From the IMG/VR virus record IMGVR_UViG_3300027833_000259, positions 1 to 20,607 of that record: DNA of 20,607 nucleotides; one strand, written 5' to 3'. This document shows, one piece after another, positions 6,274 to 20,472 of the stretch. The DNA is from a virus. The position numbers and the translations under genes were made by a program. The notes beneath the pieces were generated by a model that saw only the letters and a list, made by a program, of their open reading frames with translations, made no database searches and was not told the origin of the DNA. How positions within the stretch are numbered: position 1 is the stretch's first letter; each line of letters starts with the position of its first letter.

Positions 6274-7733
6274 TATCTTTGCCCTTGAGGTGTTACTGTT
6301 AAATCAAATCCTATAGCCTTTGTCCAAGCTCCTGTTGGTATTGTTCTTACCCTGTGGTATCTTCCACCACCTCTTAGGTCTGCTCTATTTTCACTACTTG
6401 TAATTGATACGGGCATAAAGTCTATTGCTGATGACATAGTTTGTCTTGATGCTATTTGAAAACCAGCACTGCCATTCTCAATGATGGGTTGTGCTAAAGT
6501 AGCAACACTAAACATACCAAACTCTAAATCATTAGTTGTTAATGTACAGTCATCAGGTATTAAATTAAAAGCTACTATATGACTACCAGAAGCTCCACAA
6601 AGTGCAAATTGCCCACCAATAAATAATGGTGAATCTAGCGATACTGGCATATCATCAAGTATGGGATATGGGACATCTAGTGAATCTAGTGTTCTTCCTT
6701 GAGTAGCTAATCCAGAAACAACTTGAGCATCTGTGCCACCAACTGTCCATCGTTGAGTATTAAAGTTATACATAATTAATCCTCTAGTGTCTTTAGCTGT
6801 AGGAAAATCCCACACAATTAAAGATTTTAAAGGGTCTATTGTTACACTTATATTATCTATTTGAGTTCTATCAAACTCGTTAAAGAACCAATCATTAATC
6901 TTGCCCTCGCCAATCGGTGTGACTGTTGAGCCATCACAAGACATAAATCCTGATTCTGATAACCAATAAGATGAGCCATTATGAGCTATTGCTGAAGAAC
7001 CTGAAATACACCCTGTGTTATCTGATATTAAATCAAATTGCCATATCAATGGAGTCCCAATATAGCTGGCACGAGTCACTGCTTTTTCTTGTAAAATTAA
7101 TCCAAACTCACCACCTGTAACTGCTTTTACAGCTCCACCAGAGGGTAGTATTTGAAAGTCAGCTTGATTTATATCTGTGCTATCCCAAACATTCTCATTA
7201 TTTAAATCAGACCATTGCACTTTATTGTAATCTTCATCACAGTACCCAGCCATTACAAAATCTCTTACAATAGCCATTGTTTTACATACTGGTGCTTGTT
7301 CTATGTCTGCAAATGGTTTGCTATCACCAATAATATACCTTTGAATTTTATCTGTTCCATTTGTGGCTAAAACAGCTCTACCAAATTGTTTAAATACCCA
7401 ATTAACTTGTGGTGAAGTATATCCACCAGCCTTACCTACTGGAGCAATTGTTGCTCCACTTGTTCCTGTTCTTAATATGTTATTAGCACGATATATCTCA
7501 GAATCAGTACCAGCCATAATGATTATTTCTGCTTGGTCTTTTGCTAGGAATAAAGAATTAACATCTTCACCATTGGGCATATCATCAGAAGCAGTAGATG
7601 CTTTAGGAAAAGGTGCGTAACCTGTAGAACTAGAATATACATTGTAAGCCATATCTAAGTTAGCTGTTGGACTACCTTCATTATCAGGTAAGTCAGGCTT
7701 AAATTCACCGAATAGTATTCTTTGTGTTGTCAT
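6273..7733 (-). CDS. P22 gp10-like tail hub/nozzle protein (packaged-DNA stabilisation)
   Basis: This 486-residue protein appears to be all-beta with regularly spaced strands. Its C-terminus, GRYHRVRTIPTGAWTKAIGF followed by DLTVTPQGQR, is the pattern I associate with podoviral stabilisation proteins (a G-x-YHR strand, then a W-x-x-A-x-G-x strand and a final G-x-R). The N-terminus (FGEFKPDLPDNEGSPT then LDMAYNVYSSSTGYAPFP) also fits: an opening that names the gene products loaded on the tail and a Y-P-F-P strand. Family members such as P22 gp10 sit below the head-tail adaptor, form the six-fold hub of the short tail and keep packaged DNA in. This supports a podovirus morphology. Confidence 0.75.
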   Translation of the reverse strand: MTTQRILFGEFKPDLPDNEGSPTANLDMAYNVYSSSTGYAPFPKASTASDDMPNGEDVNSLFLAKDQAEIIIMAGTDSEIYRANNILRTGTSGATIAPVGKAGGYTSPQVNWVFKQFGRAVLATNGTDKIQRYIIGDSKPFADIEQAPVCKTMAIVRDFVMAGYCDEDYNKVQWSDLNNENVWDSTDINQADFQILPSGGAVKAVTGGEFGLILQEKAVTRASYIGTPLIWQFDLISDNTGCISGSSAIAHNGSSYWLSESGFMSCDGSTVTPIGEGKINDWFFNEFDRTQIDNISVTIDPLKSLIVWDFPTAKDTRGLIMYNFNTQRWTVGGTDAQVVSGLATQGRTLDSLDVPYPILDDMPVSLDSPLFIGGQFALCGASGSHIVAFNLIPDDCTLTTNDLEFGMFSVATLAQPIIENGSAGFQIASRQTMSSAIDFMPVSITSSENRADLRGGGRYHRVRTIPTGAWTKAIGFDLTVTPQGQR

Positions 7734-7740
7734 ATATTAT

Positions 7741-8415
7741 TTACCAATTAAGTTGAATTTTACCGCCAGTGCCTACACCACCAGTCCAGTAGTAAGGGTT
7801 AGACCTATCTTGAAATCCAGCACCTCCGCCACCTGAACCATAACCAGTTGCATTAGCTCCATTACCACCACCACCACCTATTCCACCAGTTCCAAAAGGC
7901 GAACTTCCTCCTTTACCACCACTACCACTAGACCTGTCATTAGTTCCAGCTTGTCCACCAGCACCACCTACACTTCCTCCTCCACCACCATAGCCATTAC
8001 CACCATTGCCACCATTTGTTCCACCATTAGCAATTATTGAACCAAAAGTAGAACTTGCGTTTCTTCCACCTACTGAATATGAAATAACTTGAAATGGACT
8101 TACAGTAATTGTAGTGTTTTTATAAGTACCAGCACCGCCACCGCCACCGCCACCACCATTGCCAGTTTCAGTACCAGAGCCACCACTACCACCACCACCT
8201 ACTATACTAACTGTAATTCTTGTAACGCCAGCTGGAACAGTAAAACTACCATTTCCAGATGTGTATGTTGCAGAACCAGACTTGTAGAGAAGTGGTCTCC
8301 AAGCATCATCAACCTTTACATAAACTTCAGCACACTGACTCCAAGTTCCAGACCTTTTGATGTAAATGTCTTTAGTATTCTGCCATGACCCACCTGATTT
8401 GTAATATAAAGGCAT
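7741..8415 (-). CDS. Polyglycine-rich tail adhesin-like protein
   Basis: A 224-residue protein beginning at TAATG after the fibre-like gene. Residues 1-47 contain three imperfect units with a Trp about every 15-20 residues (GGSWQNTKDIYIK, SGTWSQCAEVYVK, DDAWRPLLYKSG). A short beta segment ending in ITVSIVGGGG follows, and then from about residue 72 to 215 the protein is dominated by glycine runs of up to eight, with Asn, Ser and a few aromatic residues. The T-even gp38 adhesins of the S16 type use a polyglycine-II sandwich in this way, with the loops between glycine runs binding the receptor. A receptor-binding tip protein is inferred by analogy in composition, not by sequence homology that I can show. 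Confidence 0.6.
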   Translation of the reverse strand: MPLYYKSGGSWQNTKDIYIKRSGTWSQCAEVYVKVDDAWRPLLYKSGSATYTSGNGSFTVPAGVTRITVSIVGGGGSGGSGTETGNGGGGGGGGAGTYKNTTITVSPFQVISYSVGGRNASSTFGSIIANGGTNGGNGGNGYGGGGGSVGGAGGQAGTNDRSSGSGGKGGSSPFGTGGIGGGGGNGANATGYGSGGGGAGFQDRSNPYYWTGGVGTGGKIQLNW

Positions 8416-9106: not shown

Positions 9107-9367
9107 TTATTTAATTTGATTCCAATCTTGAGACTTATCCATATCCCATTCAGGGGTATTAGGATTTTGTCTCACCCAACCACTTCCAGCAATAGTGCTG
9201 TTTGTTTGTAATATTGCTTCACCTACTATATCTGCCTTGTTAGACCAGTCAGCATTAGCATTAGCGTTAACAATAGCTTCGCCAACAAAACTTGCTTGTT
9301 GTCTAACGATTGCTCCACTACCTGTAGATGCAAAAGGTGCTGATGCAAAAGGGCAAAATCCTAGCAT
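9107..9367 (-). CDS. Small tail-region protein with MLG-FASAPFAS N-terminus
   Basis: An 86-residue protein starting at TAATG directly after the large fibre gene. The N-terminus MLGFCPFASAPFASTGSG is a signature I recognise from small proteins near tail fibre genes in marine phages and prophages. Two imperfect copies of VGEAI-x-x-(A/T)N follow (about residues 28-37 and 48-57); in other members this part is a longer series of short beta repeats. The C-terminus is acidic and rich in Asp and Trp. The function is unknown; given the context, it is likely a small virion tail component. Confidence 0.55.
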   Translation of the reverse strand: MLGFCPFASAPFASTGSGAIVRQQASFVGEAIVNANANADWSNKADIVGEAILQTNSTIAGSGWVRQNPNTPEWDMDKSQDWNQIK

Positions 9368-12300
9368 TACTTAACCCTCTTTTCTAGTTCATCTAATCTT
9401 GCTGATAGTTTCTCAATGAGTTTATCTTTGATAGCTAACATCTTGTCAATCTCTTCTATTGAATACAAAGTAGGTGATAAATGTTTTACAATCTGTCCCG
9501 CAGTACCGATATAACAGTTTGGTACATTTGCTGAAAATTCAGTTGTAGTTAAATTTGGCATAGCAACAGAGCCATCAGTATCAACTGTTATCCCATATTT
9601 ACTATTAGAAACAAGACTTACAGGGTCATTGGATTCCATTACTGCCCCATCACCATTATAATTGGGGTTTAAGTTAATCTCTTGACCACCTCTCTTAATT
9701 TTAACAAAACCATTTTCAAGGGTTGCATTACCATCATTGCCTGTCCATATGCTATCACCTGAACCACCACCCTCTCCTATAACTGCTATGTTAACATACT
9801 CAGAAATACTATTTCTGTTTGTTTGATAGTCTGGTGTAGTTATATAGAATGAATCTACAGTAGGGGCTGATGTTGCCCAAGTTGCACCTTGATTAAACAG
9901 TTGAGGTGTGAGCATTGGTTTTGTGGCAGAGCTTGAAGTAGAAGCTATTACACAATAATTAGCGTTAGGCATTGGGGTTTTAAAAGTTACCTTATATTCG
10001 CCCGAACCTGTATTTTCTACAGAAGCAATATTGTTTTCAGCTCTTATATCTGATGTTGTACCATCAAAGTTTACCCAAGCCTTTATTGAATCACCTCCGC
10101 CTGAACCACCTGTTCCTACTGCTACAGGCATACGAGCTTCTTTCCAATTATAATAATCTACAGTACCAGCTCCTGTTTTAAGCTCATAAGTGCTACCAGC
10201 TGGAATTAGTTGGAATAAAGGACTATATAAATTACCACCACCTGTATTATTATTTAAACCAATAGTGGACATATTATCGCCATCTATATGAAATTCAGCA
10301 TAAGAATTTGGTGCTGTATTTACATAAATAGAAATATATAATGGAACATCATTATCATTAGTATATACAACATCTTTTACTCTAGTGCTTCGTACGTCTT
10401 CCCACACCATCTTCTCTGGAGTGTAACTACCACCACCTGAACCACCTGTGCCAAATGAAGTAATTGTAAACTCACCATTAGTTAAACCCTGTGTACCTGA
10501 TTGTGCTCTCATGTAAGCAGAAAAATTTACTGTTTCGTCAGAAGTAGCAGTGAATATATATTGATGTGCTATAGGGGCAAATATTGCTGACTGAACATTT
10601 GTAACTACCGACCCAACATAAGCTATATTGCCAACATCCTCTGGCACTCCATTTGTATCTTTTACAAATTTAAATTCAGCTACAGGTACATTATTTGTAA
10701 GACCATTATATTGACCTGATAAATTTAAAGTGTATGTTTGACCAGCCTTAACATCAAGAGTAATACCACTTAAACCCCACTTCATCCAGTCAGTGCCGTT
10801 TAATGTAGGAACATCATTTAACTTCTCAACTTCATATAATGTTGGTGTACCTGTTGCTTCACCACCACCACTAGATTGACCAGTGATTAGTGAGGCTGAT
10901 AGGTAGGTTTTTACACCTGACCCAAGATAAGAAACATCTGGATTTGTTGATACAATATAACCCGCTAATTCTAAATAATCATTAACACCATCTAAATAAA
11001 TTATATCACTTACAGTACCTCTTACTGCCTTATCAGCTGTTACATCATTACCATAAGAAACAGGAATACCATTTTTATATAACGAAGCTACAAGCCTAGT
11101 TGCATTTGGAACTCCAGCTTGAGATACTGCTCCATTAACTTGATACCAACCTTTTACAGTGGGTTTAAATTTACCATTATCAAAAGCCCCACTTGTATCA
11201 ATAGAAGCAGAATCTAGTTTAACAGTTTCCTCTACTCCACTTGTTACTGGTTGATTTGTAGTTAACTCACCCCTAAACACAACCGCTTCTTGTACCTCAC
11301 CACCACCTGAACCACCACTAGATTGACCAGTGATTAGTGCTACGTTAAATTTAGTTGTACGACCACTAACAATATTAACCTCACTAGAGCTAACAGTTAA
11401 TGCTTCTATGGTTATATAATCAGTTGTGCCATTACATTTAACTATTGTGGTTGTTGTAGAAGTTATATTATCTTGAGTAGTAGCATCATTATACGCTTCT
11501 GAACCTTGTTGTACCTTGTTGCCATTTAATGATACTGCACATATTCCTCGTCTTACAGAACCATCTCTAAATCCTGTGCTTCCAGAGACAAGGTAATAAC
11601 CTTCTACATTTGGTGTGTATCTTCCAGTAGCTGTATCTAAACAGTCATTTGTATCAATTTCTGCATCCTCAAACGTAACTGGAACCCATAAGTTTGATGG
11701 TATAGATTGGTCTGCTGTTTTACTAGCTCTCATTGTAACTGCTGGTTGTACATCTCCACCACCACTTCCACCGCCTGTTACCTCTGACCATGCTTCATCT
11801 TGTCTTGCATATTGTTTACCATCTGCTGGTGCTTCTGTAACTACTGTTTTACCATTGACTGTTATGTCGTCTGGTGTAGTTATACCCCCATTCCTTTCTA
11901 TTGTTAAAGCTTCTTTGTTACCATCTCTTAAAAATTTAAATCCACCAAACGCTGAAGCAAACTCTATTGTGTTGTCAGGGTCAGCATACTTTTTAATGTA
12001 GTTCTCTCTATCACCATCAAACTGTTCTATATAATACTCTTTACCAGCAACTCCACCATCATATTCAGCTACATCATCTACTTCTGTCCATATACTATCA
12101 CCACCTCCACCAGCACTTGCTGGGAAAGCTTGAAATGCTACTTTAACACCTTCTATTATTGTGCCTTGTGCATCTTTGTTGTTAACTAAAAGAACTACAT
12201 AATCACCAGCATCATCAACACTAATAAGTTCATATCTTCCATAGTTAGGACTTTCTACTTGATTTAACACAAGAGAATCACCAGCTTTTATAGCAGTAAA

Positions 12301-13395
12301 TTCACGAGTATTGCCTTGTTCATCAGTCTTAGATAATAATATTTGATTACAAGTTGCATAGCTATATGTAAATACACCCGTTGCTTGAAGATACATATTA
12401 CCTGTTTCAGGGTCTCTATTAGCACTACTTGGGTAGTCAGCAGAGTAAGATGAGCTAAAGAATATACCTTCTTGTAATGCTTCTATATCTTCTGAGTTTT
12501 GACTTACCTGTCCTGATAGTGTTCCAATAGCAGTTGTGTTAGATGATATGTTTCCTGTGTTAGTTGCAATGTCTGTTGTGTTAGCTGTTATTTCAGCATC
12601 TTGTTCTAGTTGTTGTGCATCTATTTCAGCTTTAGTGTAAGTAGTAGTTTTATCTGCTTTCTCAAATAGCTTACTATCAATTTCAGTGTTGTTGTAAGTT
12701 TCAGCTTTAGTGTAGCTATCGCCAACATTAGCTTTGTTATCTAATAATGTGTCTGTTTGTGTTTTAGTGTAAGTTGTTACCTTGTCAGCCTTATCATCTA
12801 ATAGGTCGTTTGTTTCTGTTTTAGTATATCCATCAGTAGACTCTACTTCTGTCCATTCACCATCTTGTCTACCATATTGTAATCCATTAACAGGTGCATC
12901 AGGTATGCCAGCAGTATCAGTAATAGATACCCATGTCTTGTTGTTACGAGCATATGTCTCACCATCTGTTGGTGCTTCAGGTGCTAGGTTATTTGTATCA
13001 GCATTAATGTTAGTAATACCATTGCCTTTACCTACAAAGTTATTAGCAGTAACATTAGATGATGGAAAATATATATTGTCATCAGCATTTAAGAATACAG
13101 CCTTTTCAGAAGGGTATGTACAGAATATACTTGAGTTACCTGATAGAGGTATCTTTTCGTTAGCGTTAGATGAAGATAACACAGTTCTTGATATTGCTTG
13201 TGTTGAACCTCTGTTCATGTAGTTCCCATAACCAACTTCCCAAGCTGTATTATCTGTAATACAGTAGTAAACTGTGTTACCATATGTAATACCTTCCCAA
13301 CCTTGATAACCCTCTTTGGTTGCACCAATGATTAAATCACTTGTGCCTGTGGTTGTACATAGTGTAAATATTCTATCTTTTAATTGAATTGCCAT
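9367..13395 (-). CDS. Large multidomain tail fibre with C1q-like modules and Gly/Ser linkers
   Basis: A 1342-residue fibre. Residues 1-105 form the attachment domain (KDRIFTLCTTTGTSD, then YQGWEGITYGNTVYYC and AWEVGYG), a common phage fibre N-terminus. Residues 138-187 hold two P-x-x-G-x-x-Y-x-R-x-x-x-x-W units and a third lies at 520-539. Residues 189-258 contain YTK-T/AE-x-x-x-LLD-x-KAD repeats, then a heptad coiled coil with NTT-I/T patterns (262-310). From 311 on, beta domains are separated by Gly/Ser linkers near 428-434, 540-549, 690-702, 838-846, 983-990, 1094-1102 and 1207-1214. Domains 550-690 and 703-838 look C1q/TNF-like. Residues 1311-1342 are a C-terminal coiled coil, which could nucleate trimers. 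It is the best candidate for the main host-recognition fibre. Confidence 0.85.
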   Translation of the reverse strand: MAIQLKDRIFTLCTTTGTSDLIIGATKEGYQGWEGITYGNTVYYCITDNTAWEVGYGNYMNRGSTQAISRTVLSSSNANEKIPLSGNSSIFCTYPSEKAVFLNADDNIYFPSSNVTANNFVGKGNGITNINADTNNLAPEAPTDGETYARNNKTWVSITDTAGIPDAPVNGLQYGRQDGEWTEVESTDGYTKTETNDLLDDKADKVTTYTKTQTDTLLDNKANVGDSYTKAETYNNTEIDSKLFEKADKTTTYTKAEIDAQQLEQDAEITANTTDIATNTGNISSNTTAIGTLSGQVSQNSEDIEALQEGIFFSSSYSADYPSSANRDPETGNMYLQATGVFTYSYATCNQILLSKTDEQGNTREFTAIKAGDSLVLNQVESPNYGRYELISVDDAGDYVVLLVNNKDAQGTIIEGVKVAFQAFPASAGGGGDSIWTEVDDVAEYDGGVAGKEYYIEQFDGDRENYIKKYADPDNTIEFASAFGGFKFLRDGNKEALTIERNGGITTPDDITVNGKTVVTEAPADGKQYARQDEAWSEVTGGGSGGGDVQPAVTMRASKTADQSIPSNLWVPVTFEDAEIDTNDCLDTATGRYTPNVEGYYLVSGSTGFRDGSVRRGICAVSLNGNKVQQGSEAYNDATTQDNITSTTTTIVKCNGTTDYITIEALTVSSSEVNIVSGRTTKFNVALITGQSSGGSGGGEVQEAVVFRGELTTNQPVTSGVEETVKLDSASIDTSGAFDNGKFKPTVKGWYQVNGAVSQAGVPNATRLVASLYKNGIPVSYGNDVTADKAVRGTVSDIIYLDGVNDYLELAGYIVSTNPDVSYLGSGVKTYLSASLITGQSSGGGEATGTPTLYEVEKLNDVPTLNGTDWMKWGLSGITLDVKAGQTYTLNLSGQYNGLTNNVPVAEFKFVKDTNGVPEDVGNIAYVGSVVTNVQSAIFAPIAHQYIFTATSDETVNFSAYMRAQSGTQGLTNGEFTITSFGTGGSGGGSYTPEKMVWEDVRSTRVKDVVYTNDNDVPLYISIYVNTAPNSYAEFHIDGDNMSTIGLNNNTGGGNLYSPLFQLIPAGSTYELKTGAGTVDYYNWKEARMPVAVGTGGSGGGDSIKAWVNFDGTTSDIRAENNIASVENTGSGEYKVTFKTPMPNANYCVIASTSSSATKPMLTPQLFNQGATWATSAPTVDSFYITTPDYQTNRNSISEYVNIAVIGEGGGSGDSIWTGNDGNATLENGFVKIKRGGQEINLNPNYNGDGAVMESNDPVSLVSNSKYGITVDTDGSVAMPNLTTTEFSANVPNCYIGTAGQIVKHLSPTLYSIEEIDKMLAIKDKLIEKLSARLDELEKRVK
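10864..10892 (-). repeat. 29-base perfect direct repeat, copy A (end of second C1q-like module)
   Basis: Identical base for base to 11311-11339. On the minus strand it encodes the end of the second C1q-like domain and the start of the next Gly/Ser linker (LITGQSSGG). The two copies are 447 bases apart, an exact multiple of three, so recombination between them would remove or add one module in frame. Confidence 0.9.
11311..11339 (-). repeat. 29-base perfect direct repeat, copy B (end of first C1q-like module)
   Basis: Partner of the copy at 10864-10892. It encodes LITGQSSGG at the end of the first C1q-like domain. The flanking domain bodies have diverged strongly, so the identity is confined to this junction. 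Confidence 0.9.
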
Positions 13396-18772: not shown

Positions 18773-20077
18773 TTAAACGTAATAATCTTTATATGAATCA
18801 CCATCTAATGTTGTTTCAAATGGCTTTGACCAATCTGTTCTTTGTCCGTTACCTGTTGAGTCCATTCCTAGTGCTAAGTATCTAAAAGCATCTGCTGCGT
18901 GTGAACTCCAATCATGTAATGGCCTGTTTTGGAATGAGCTAGTTTTTTCGTTAAAGACTCTACGATAATTCTGTAAACACTCTACTCCAGCTCTTGTCTT
19001 ATCTTTATTAAACCAACAGTTAGGTAATATTCTTCTGACTGCTTGTATTCCATCTTCTACAGAACTCTTAGGTGCAACCTCAATATCTAAACCAGCTTCT
19101 GTTAAAAATTGGTATCGAGATTTTCCTGTTTGTAATTCTCTAACATTAACATCGTGTGGCATAATGTGAGTGTAGTCTCTATAACCTTTCTCATCTAACC
19201 AGTTTATATAATGGTCTAATGACTCACCAGATGCTTCATAAAAATCCATTACTCTTACTTCACCACTTATTATTTCTGCTACCCAAATGGCGGTTGAATC
19301 AGACATTCCTAAATCCCATGCAGTTACCTTTTGAGTTGCTGCCTCAGATATAATCTCTCTAATTCTATGCTTATCAGTAAGTTCTTTTAAAAGCTCTCCG
19401 TAGTAAGCTCCGACAATAGGTGCTTCAAAACTAATCTCAAATTCTTGGTCATATTTATTATCACCCATCGCTTTCTTCGCATCTTTTAGCTCATCTGGTG
19501 CAATTAACTTTGTCTCACTAGCTTTAAACTCTCTGAGTGTCCAGTTTTCGTTATCATCTGTATCGGCAAAATCTCTTAGTGTCTTGAAGTGATTTGAGCC
19601 TTTAGGTGTTCCGATAAACATTGCCCAACCAATTCTATCTGATAATGCTGGTCTTATTACTTCTGTAAATAACTGTGGTGCAACATCGCCATATTCATCT
19701 ATGACTGCACCATCTAAGTAAATGCCTCGAAGTGAGTCTGCATTATCTGCTCCGTACAAACTTATTCTTCTTCCCATGAAATCAACACGAAGTTCACTTA
19801 CATTTGGAACTCCACCTAAAGGGCGAGTATAATCTTTTAAATAATCCCAAGCAATTCTTTTAGCTTGACTGTAAGTTGGAGCTATATAAGCATACTGTGG
19901 ATTTGGCTTATCGCATTGTAATGCAGCGTGAATTAACTGATTAATTGCAGCGACAGTCTTACCCATTCGTCTGTGACAGACTGCTACAGTCCACCTATAA
20001 TCCCTTACTGCTTTGTGGATTGCTTTCTGTGGCTCTCTAGGCTCATATCCTGTACTTACTTCCTCTACGACTGCCAA
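18773..20077 (-). CDS. terL: Terminase large subunit
   Basis: A 434-residue packaging motor. The ATPase has a Walker A at 34-41 (CHRRMGKT), a Walker B ending in Asp127-Glu128 (LDGAVIDEY) and the coupling motif GTPKG at 156-160. The nuclease half starts with WDLGMSDS, giving Asp255 and Asp260, and ends with HAADAFRY, giving Asp396; these are the expected metal-binding acids of the RNase H-like fold. The start is a TTG at 20077: an in-frame TAA lies six codons upstream and no ATG occurs before residue 38, so TTG (with GGAA upstream) is the best choice. The gene overlaps the HNH gene by 13 bases. It drives ATP-dependent DNA translocation into the procapsid and cuts the concatemer. Confidence 0.9.
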   Translation of the reverse strand: MAVVEEVSTGYEPREPQKAIHKAVRDYRWTVAVCHRRMGKTVAAINQLIHAALQCDKPNPQYAYIAPTYSQAKRIAWDYLKDYTRPLGGVPNVSELRVDFMGRRISLYGADNADSLRGIYLDGAVIDEYGDVAPQLFTEVIRPALSDRIGWAMFIGTPKGSNHFKTLRDFADTDDNENWTLREFKASETKLIAPDELKDAKKAMGDNKYDQEFEISFEAPIVGAYYGELLKELTDKHRIREIISEAATQKVTAWDLGMSDSTAIWVAEIISGEVRVMDFYEASGESLDHYINWLDEKGYRDYTHIMPHDVNVRELQTGKSRYQFLTEAGLDIEVAPKSSVEDGIQAVRRILPNCWFNKDKTRAGVECLQNYRRVFNEKTSSFQNRPLHDWSSHAADAFRYLALGMDSTGNGQRTDWSKPFETTLDGDSYKDYYV

Positions 20078-20472
20078 TATTCTTCCGAGTTCTTATTGTT
20101 CTTTATTAAATTCCATGTAGCAGGAACTACTTGCAGATTGTCTGCCTTATTTGTTCCGCCTAATGATAAAGGAATAATATGGTCAATATGCCAAGCATAT
20201 CCAAATAGCTTTGTTGCATCATCACGAATTTTAACTAAACTTGCCCAGTTATCTTTGTCTTCTTTAGTCATTAGAGACTCTACATTCTTTCTTTGTAGTC
20301 TTCTCATAGCAGAATCTGCCTCAACCTTTTCTTTATTATCTTTCTTCCACTGAGCTTTTCTTACTACTTCAGACTCTTTATTTTTTTCTGCCCAAGCTTT
20401 TTTATTAGCTGATACTTTTTCTCTGTTGTTTCTAACCCAAGCTTTTTGGTCTTCTTTGTTTTTATATGCCAT
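20065..20472 (-). CDS. HNH endonuclease next to terminase
   Basis: A 135-residue protein with AAAGGAG eight bases before its ATG. The C-terminal part holds the HNH core: WHIDHIIPLSLGGTNKADNL with His95 and His98, Asn112, and then NLIKNNK as the third element with Asn121. Residues 1-60 are very basic and charged, with tryptophans at 12, 27 and 42, an exact 15-residue period (K-A-W-x-x-x-N-x-E-K-V type units), likely a DNA-binding helix. HNH proteins beside the large terminase are known in many phages and in some are needed for packaging cleavage; a selfish free-standing endonuclease is the alternative. Overlap with the terminase gene favours a shared task. Confidence 0.8.
   Translation of the reverse strand: MAYKNKEDQKAWVRNNREKVSANKKAWAEKNKESEVVRKAQWKKDNKEKVEADSAMRRLQRKNVESLMTKEDKDNWASLVKIRDDATKLFGYAWHIDHIIPLSLGGTNKADNLQVVPATWNLIKNNKNSEEYWQS

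Follow-up and report, generated by a model that had tools for sequence, protein, structure and literature searches.

The multi-module fibre gene of the virus record IMGVR_UViG_3300027833_000259 contains a perfect 29-bp direct repeat, which is probably the footprint of recombination in a fibre made of adhesin-like modules strung together, with edges that share their DNA and bodies that have diverged. The window, i.e., the whole stretch of 20,607 bases that was analysed, is a virus record not classed as complete in IMG/VR. It belongs to the SU10/GP4-like podophage group, as seen from its Pfam matches to the capsid (PF17236), adaptor (PF24175) and gp80 (PF23140) families. The fibre gene is composed of a fibritin-C-like part, two C1q-like modules (A and B) and several further modules, with Gly-Ser linkers between them. 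Its features are, in coding order:

9367–13395, minus strand: multi-module fibre gene, 1342 aa (ORF; PHROG tail-fibre and fibritin matches; Pfam C1q and Fibritin_C)
12106–12465, minus strand: conserved domain, residues 311–430, used as bait for related fibres (61–68% amino acid identity to six fibres; 24 loci)
11776–11853, minus strand: fibritin-C/foldon-like segment, residues 515–540, upstream of module A (Pfam PF07921)
11728–11778, minus strand: Gly-Ser linker between foldon and C1q module A
11338–11760, minus strand: C1q-like module A, residues 546–686 (Pfam C1q; C1QL1/C1QL3 fold match; sister of the L087 module)
11311–11339, minus strand: repeat copy 1, the first of the two to be translated; covers the C-terminal edge of module A and the linker start
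11287–11337, minus strand: linker between C1q modules A and B, overlapping repeat copy 1 and containing GGTTCAGGT
10891–11301, minus strand: C1q-like module B, residues 699–835 (model with pLDDT 90.7; PDB C1q matches; sister of the L008 module)
10864–10892, minus strand: repeat copy 2; covers the C-terminal edge of module B and the linker start
10840–10890, minus strand: linker between C1q module B and the next module, overlapping repeat copy 2
10444–10860, minus strand: module 846–984 (bounds set from linkers)
10411–10461, minus strand: linker GGSGGG, with 18 bp exactly in common with linker A/B, containing GGTTCAGGT
10114–10428, minus strand: module 990–1094, of the 995 family whose number varies among relatives (phrog_18834; 24 modules in 12 loci)
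10078–10128, minus strand: linker between module 995 and module 1100
9775–10092, minus strand: module 1102–1207, 83% identical in nucleotides to an L003 module of other context (phrog_11355/27810)
9736–9786, minus strand: linker ahead of the C-terminal region, containing GGTTCAGGT
9370–9753, minus strand: C-terminal region, residues 1215–1342, the last 99 nt being 93–94% identical to several relatives

Elsewhere in the window, a 224-aa Gly-rich protein with tail-fibre PHROG matches and several Gly-coding repeats is encoded at 7741–8415 (minus strand), and a small ORF resembling an HNH endonuclease by eye (20065–20472, minus strand) is found just before the terminase large subunit gene.

The two repeat copies are identical, as a previous sequence-only reading of this DNA had claimed; their spacing is 447 bp (149 codons), and both are read in the same phase of the minus-strand ORF. 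No other exact direct repeat in the window is as long; the next-longest (18 bp) is found in a Gly-Ser linker of the same fibre gene. A 30-mer that topped the repeat scan was an artefact of overlapping slices and no repeat. The repeat encodes LITGQSSGG, the last strand and the linker of each C1q-fold module, found at the end of the module and the start of the linker as ALITGQSSGG and SLITGQSSGG. The copies had been described as framing one module: they do bracket module B, but each of them marks the C-terminal edge of a module. Joining the gene across the repeat in silico removed exactly one module and left an open frame of 1193 aa, in agreement with the proposal that recombination between the copies would remove one module with the frame kept. 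Shuffling of synonymous codons with the protein kept gave a maximum repeat of at least 29 bp in 1 of 2000 shuffles, and codon usage gives nine equal codons a probability of 0.0005. That the tails of A and B share a common origin is therefore judged much more likely than chance. Comparison of the two modules gives a modest signal: the tail uses the same codon at 9 of 9 sites, against 17 of the 35 residues that are identical between the bodies (Fisher P = 0.006). At their N-terminal edges the two modules resemble each other in DNA without matching exactly, with a codon in common at 6 of 10 identical residues. The 29-mer had no match in other IMG/VR viral contigs, and the peptide (A/S/T/P)LITGQxxGG had only three, none of which qualifies as a C1q linker on frame and surroundings (in two, the frame runs through stop codons, and the remaining one is an unrelated protein). 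The repeat is for these reasons not regarded as a conserved device.

Modules A and B are predicted to have a jelly-roll fold like that of solved gC1q domains. The Pfam C1q profile scored 26.0 bits against a cut-off of 23.7, its best stretch lying in module A; module B gave no separate stretch in this search and was recognised by a profile derived from C1q modules of phages. The model of module A has TM scores of 0.85–0.86, by target length, to C1QL1/C1QL3. A first tandem A+B model was poor in module B, which was hence folded alone. Its model (mean pLDDT 90.7) has TM scores of about 0.75–0.79 to C1QL1/3 and C1q matches in the PDB. All structure models are monomers. The modules share 33% amino acid identity, the value away from the repeat (~33%) bearing out the divergence of the domain bodies noted earlier. 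In a tree of 25 modules A pairs with the C1q module of locus L087 (98/94) and B with that of locus L008 (94/91), and A+B as a single clade was rejected (AU p 0.00526). The same pairing was obtained in a tree of 90 modules, where A and the L087 module are joined by the long-branched row L178. In-place tandem duplication of one C1q module is rejected by the AU test (p 0.005): A and B are not sisters, and hence not tandem copies of one another, and the phylogeny assigns them to separate lineages. In L087 the A-type module stands alone in the same place after the fibritin-like part and is followed by a Gly-Ser linker and a 995-type module, and the B-type module of L008 is part of a second fibre. 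Pattern searches with the C1q pair gave 9 matches in viral contigs and 37 in genome contigs, module B alone gave 13 and the 311–430 domain 75 in genome contigs, none of them related; the C1q pair searched against PDB sequences gave one chance nanobody match (E 0.39).

The conserved fibre domain was found in 24 contigs, one of which (L087) has a C1q module in the same ORF. L008 and L020 have clear C1q matches in another ORF of the contig and L098 a weak one (E 0.001). Absence of C1q from this set counts as weak evidence because many of the 24 contigs end prematurely. The window fibre thus has two C1q modules, L087 one and the second fibre ORF of L008 one. A search for relatives with zero, one or more modules had been suggested, and fibres with 0, 1 or 2 C1q modules do exist, but no near-identical relative of the window fibre with zero, one or three was found. 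Nor did any relative turn out to have this C1q pair or this repeat, so use of the window's own 29-bp repeat is unseen. More than one C1q match is present in 4 of 123 C1q ORFs, some matches being weak or partial, and the window ORF alone has an exact repeat of at least 15 bp; the three others have none. A general rule of end repeats in tandem C1q modules was discarded on this ground. Among C1q pairs of the same locus, 12 of 43 have a longest common exact word of 14–21 bp. At two loci, L122 and L171, this word is close to the C1q tail, and elsewhere it falls within a body or an N edge; the window pair is missing from these 43 pairs, trimming of overlapping slices having removed its tail.

Many phage contigs show neighbouring genes with a single C1q domain. 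In L083, L191, L076 and other loci, two to three adjoining genes with one C1q domain each are found instead of a one-gene tandem. L119 differs from L120/L121 by 150 bp: it lacks the last part of one C1q gene with the stop codon, and also the start of the following gene, and so reads as one 660-aa ORF; such a fusion is a natural route to tandem C1q proteins. L137 and L172 differ from L138 by 257 bp in a third C1q gene, a length that is not a multiple of three, and are otherwise identical.

Sharing of DNA at module edges extends beyond the repeat. All 21 pairs of the seven window linkers have 7–29 bp in common, in frame, the 29-bp repeat being the longest of these shared linker DNAs, and three of them contain the 9-mer GGTTCAGGT. 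Comparison of the window fibre with relatives by BLASTN gave short high-identity blocks at module edges with diverged bodies between them: 94.6% over 56 nt in L006 (linker and first residues of a 995-type module), 95% over 41 nt at a module edge in L092, and 84–98% over 51–105 nt at the fibre C-terminus in several relatives. The sequence-only reading had suggested comparing the linker DNA with that of other fibres; edge blocks and GGTTCAGGT recur in relatives but the 29-mer itself is in no other contig searched. In the 995 family (16 modules), the ratio of same-codon counts to the codon-use expectation is 1.30 at the N edge and 1.48 at the C edge, whose columns reach partly into the neighbouring module, against 1.06 in the body. 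Bootstrap intervals of edge minus body are above zero, and one pair has 98% identity at the N edge and 49% in the body. The set was obtained by removing redundant modules with more than 85% identity (24 reduced to 17) and then the L130 row. These counts show excess synonymous identity at the edges of this one module family. Loci with double identifiers were removed from the window-fibre BLASTN, the 995-family set and the 86% identity scan described below; they were kept in the 90% scan, where some rows repeat.

Genome comparison provides natural cases of module number change. L095 and L098, whose contig names point to two different metagenomes, are one 995-type module apart (330 bp, in frame, L095 about 6857–7187), with flanking identities of 97.5% (6.9 kb) and 99.9% (3.5 kb). 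The 9-bp Gly-Ser linker repeat GGTTCAGGT is found at each end of the additional segment, and the shorter variant has a single copy. L092 and L094 are two 995-type modules apart (615 bp, in frame; flanks 89.6% and 95.3%), and the distance from foldon to collar is 681 bp in L092 and 66 bp in L094. By motif positions it is 384–396 bp in L003, L005, L006, L007, L095 and L098, which have one module there. The L092/L094 junction lies within a linker, yet is no simple repeat deletion. L008 and L090 are 174 bp apart, in frame, with Gly-rich ends. A first scan at 90% identity detected only L095/L098; lowering the threshold to 86% yielded 17 pairwise events among 181 loci, and the three indels inside one ORF are all in frame. 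The other 14 events comprise ten pairs with one 369-bp difference upstream of the capsid gene, two with the C1q gene fusion and two with the 257-bp difference. The 369-bp segment is found in L052 (8562–8965) and L053 (4890–5293) and is missing from five relatives. L003 and L006 show a different pattern, blocks of 96–100% identity alternating with unlike blocks whose borders are at or near module edges, a case of module replacement. Natural relatives that differ in module number with the frame kept are thus L095/L098, L092/L094 and L008/L090, and by comparison of their sequences in-frame gain or loss of modules at linkers, the two being indistinguishable here, is shown to occur in the phage group of the window. 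No indel event was seen at the window's own repeat among relatives.

Enzymes that could carry out such exchanges are encoded in this group. A YqaJ exonuclease was recognised in 7 of 10 records of relatives (all seven longer than 35 kb). Three of the ten have an ERF annealing protein, which adjoins the exonuclease by position (reading frames for two). RecT and Rad52 models matched none of these ten records, and no recombinase was recognised among the ORFs searched in the window, which is a fragment. In L197 (1983–2360, minus strand) and L198 (1124–1471, plus strand), a phrog_11717 protein of 115–125 aa lies directly before a RecE/YqaJ-like exonuclease. It occupies the slot of the ERF protein in L194 and is a candidate small annealing protein. 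The minimal pairing length is given as 31–34 bp for RecA and 23–27 bp for Red beta (PMC3945230). The 29-bp repeat falls between these minima and the 9-bp L095/L098 junction is below both, therefore slippage or illegitimate joining may act at the latter.

Taken with the relatives, the repeat most likely records a joining of modules and offers a site at which module B could be lost. The fibre would be a string of adhesin-like modules on Gly-Ser linkers in which the edges (last strand, linker and first residues) would keep their DNA similar as the bodies diverge. Such similarity of edges next to diverged bodies argues that recombination, between phages or within one genome, may join, swap, add or drop whole modules in frame; the near-identical linkers would allow a module to be lost or gained cleanly. 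We infer an event by which two C1q modules of separate lineages would have come to have one C-terminal edge in common, creating the 29-bp repeat, which would remain a substrate for precise deletion of module B. The putative machinery would be the phage exonuclease together with an ERF-type or other annealing protein. The sequence-only reading had seen in the repeat a built-in device for changing module number. Relatives do have in-frame module indels at linkers, but the repeat is not conserved and A and B are not its duplicates. That reading had named as joint evidence against itself a repeat not conserved in nucleotides, which is the case, and relatives that always carry two modules, which is not, their number being zero, one or two. 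Its mechanism is partly supported: it is right in kind, and may apply at the 29-bp repeat itself, with a possible effect on host range.

The idea that the repeat is maintained as a device for recurrent deletion or duplication of module B, and thereby for shifts of host range, would be favoured by the exact geometry of the repeat, the frame that stays open, the variable module number of relatives and a length above the 23–27 bp minimum of Red beta, if below the 31–34 bp of RecA (PMC3945230). We regard it as unlikely in view of a repeat found in no other contig searched, of the separate lineages of A and B, which imply that the repeat has not been generating tandem copies, and of a window fibre for which no sibling with zero, one or three modules was found. 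Gene conversion between A and B could have homogenised the tail and left the module count unchanged, as its restricted identity with an abrupt end would suggest; by eye, the A tail ALITGQ is also closer to the VLVSGG tail of the B-type L008 module than to RIASSS of the A-type L087 module. It leaves unexplained the adjacency of two lineages and the module indels of relatives, and is quite improbable.

The assumption that the same last strand and Gly-Ser linker are needed in both modules and that their codons coincide by chance finds some ground in the C1q final strand, loosely conserved by eye, and in the recurrence of Gly/Ser linkers. We consider it very unlikely, 29 bp having been reached in only one of the 2000 synonymous shuffles, nine equal codons having a probability of 0.0005, and the LITGQ-Ser-Ser-Gly-Gly tail not being found in other C1q linkers. 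The metagenome contig might also have fused two strain variants at a 29-bp word during assembly, in a record that IMG/VR does not class as complete. Common assemblers use longest words that exceed 29 bp, the reading frame is unbroken, and related fibres match other stretches of the gene, all of which make an assembly artefact very improbable. The footprint of module joining is the reading that we retain as probable.

Fibre variation by recombination is known already in T4 and OP1, in the form of motif swaps or of duplicates of small domains. In work attributed to Tetart in 1996, the host range of T4 reportedly expanded through duplications of a small domain of the gp37 adhesin. The T4 system shares with the fibres of the window group an in-frame change in the number of a small repeated adhesin piece, and differs in that the window group has whole folded modules of different lineages in place of duplicates of one motif. 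Short conserved motifs that flank variable segments reportedly act as crossover sites in phage adhesins; there, segments are swapped at motifs, whereas the window group has both swaps and number change along a long string. The T4 fibre-domain duplication is cited in a report on Xanthomonas oryzae phages OP1, Xp10 and Xop411, whose fibre domains are arranged as 1-2-3, 1-2-2-2-3 and 1-2-3-3-3 (PMC2248197). Short direct repeats are found at the domain ends, recombination was suggested, and host range was linked to fibre domain number in OP1 mutants (PMC2248197). The OP1 type resembles the window group in its variable number of fibre domains and in the short direct repeats at their ends. Its duplicated domains are small and lie in a short N-terminal stretch (1-2-3 of ~118 aa; PMC2248197), while in the window fibre the bodies have diverged and the edges alone are in common. 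In metaviromic islands of marine phages, which like the window phage are marine and have C1q-domain and tail-fibre genes, C1q-domain genes were among the most variable, and a role in host recognition was inferred (PMC3909814). That work deals with genes and read coverage (PMC3909814), our study with in-frame module change inside one fibre. By the general role of fibres and this work on marine phage C1q genes (PMC3909814), fibre change in the window group may alter host recognition. Among titles and abstract beginnings searched, subscription journals being mostly outside the scope, none was on in-frame gain or loss of whole modules at linkers in this phage group.

The phage group of the window is little studied and known mainly from metagenomes; among cultured relatives, Methylophilales phage Venkman has a related capsid and fibre N-terminus. 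Modular exchange is a known style of phage evolution, and in this group the units exchanged via common linker DNA appear to be entire folded modules from different lineages. Near-identical genomes that are one module apart make fibre turnover measurable from population sequence data, and the module junctions offer concrete sites for examining phage-encoded annealing recombination. It is conceivable, if doubtful, that the linker DNA is kept alike beyond the needs of the protein and forms a shared crossover code for in-frame module exchange by the phage exonuclease and annealing protein. If this were true, the fibre would be a recombination-ready string of adhesins, with turnover of module number and order inside populations.
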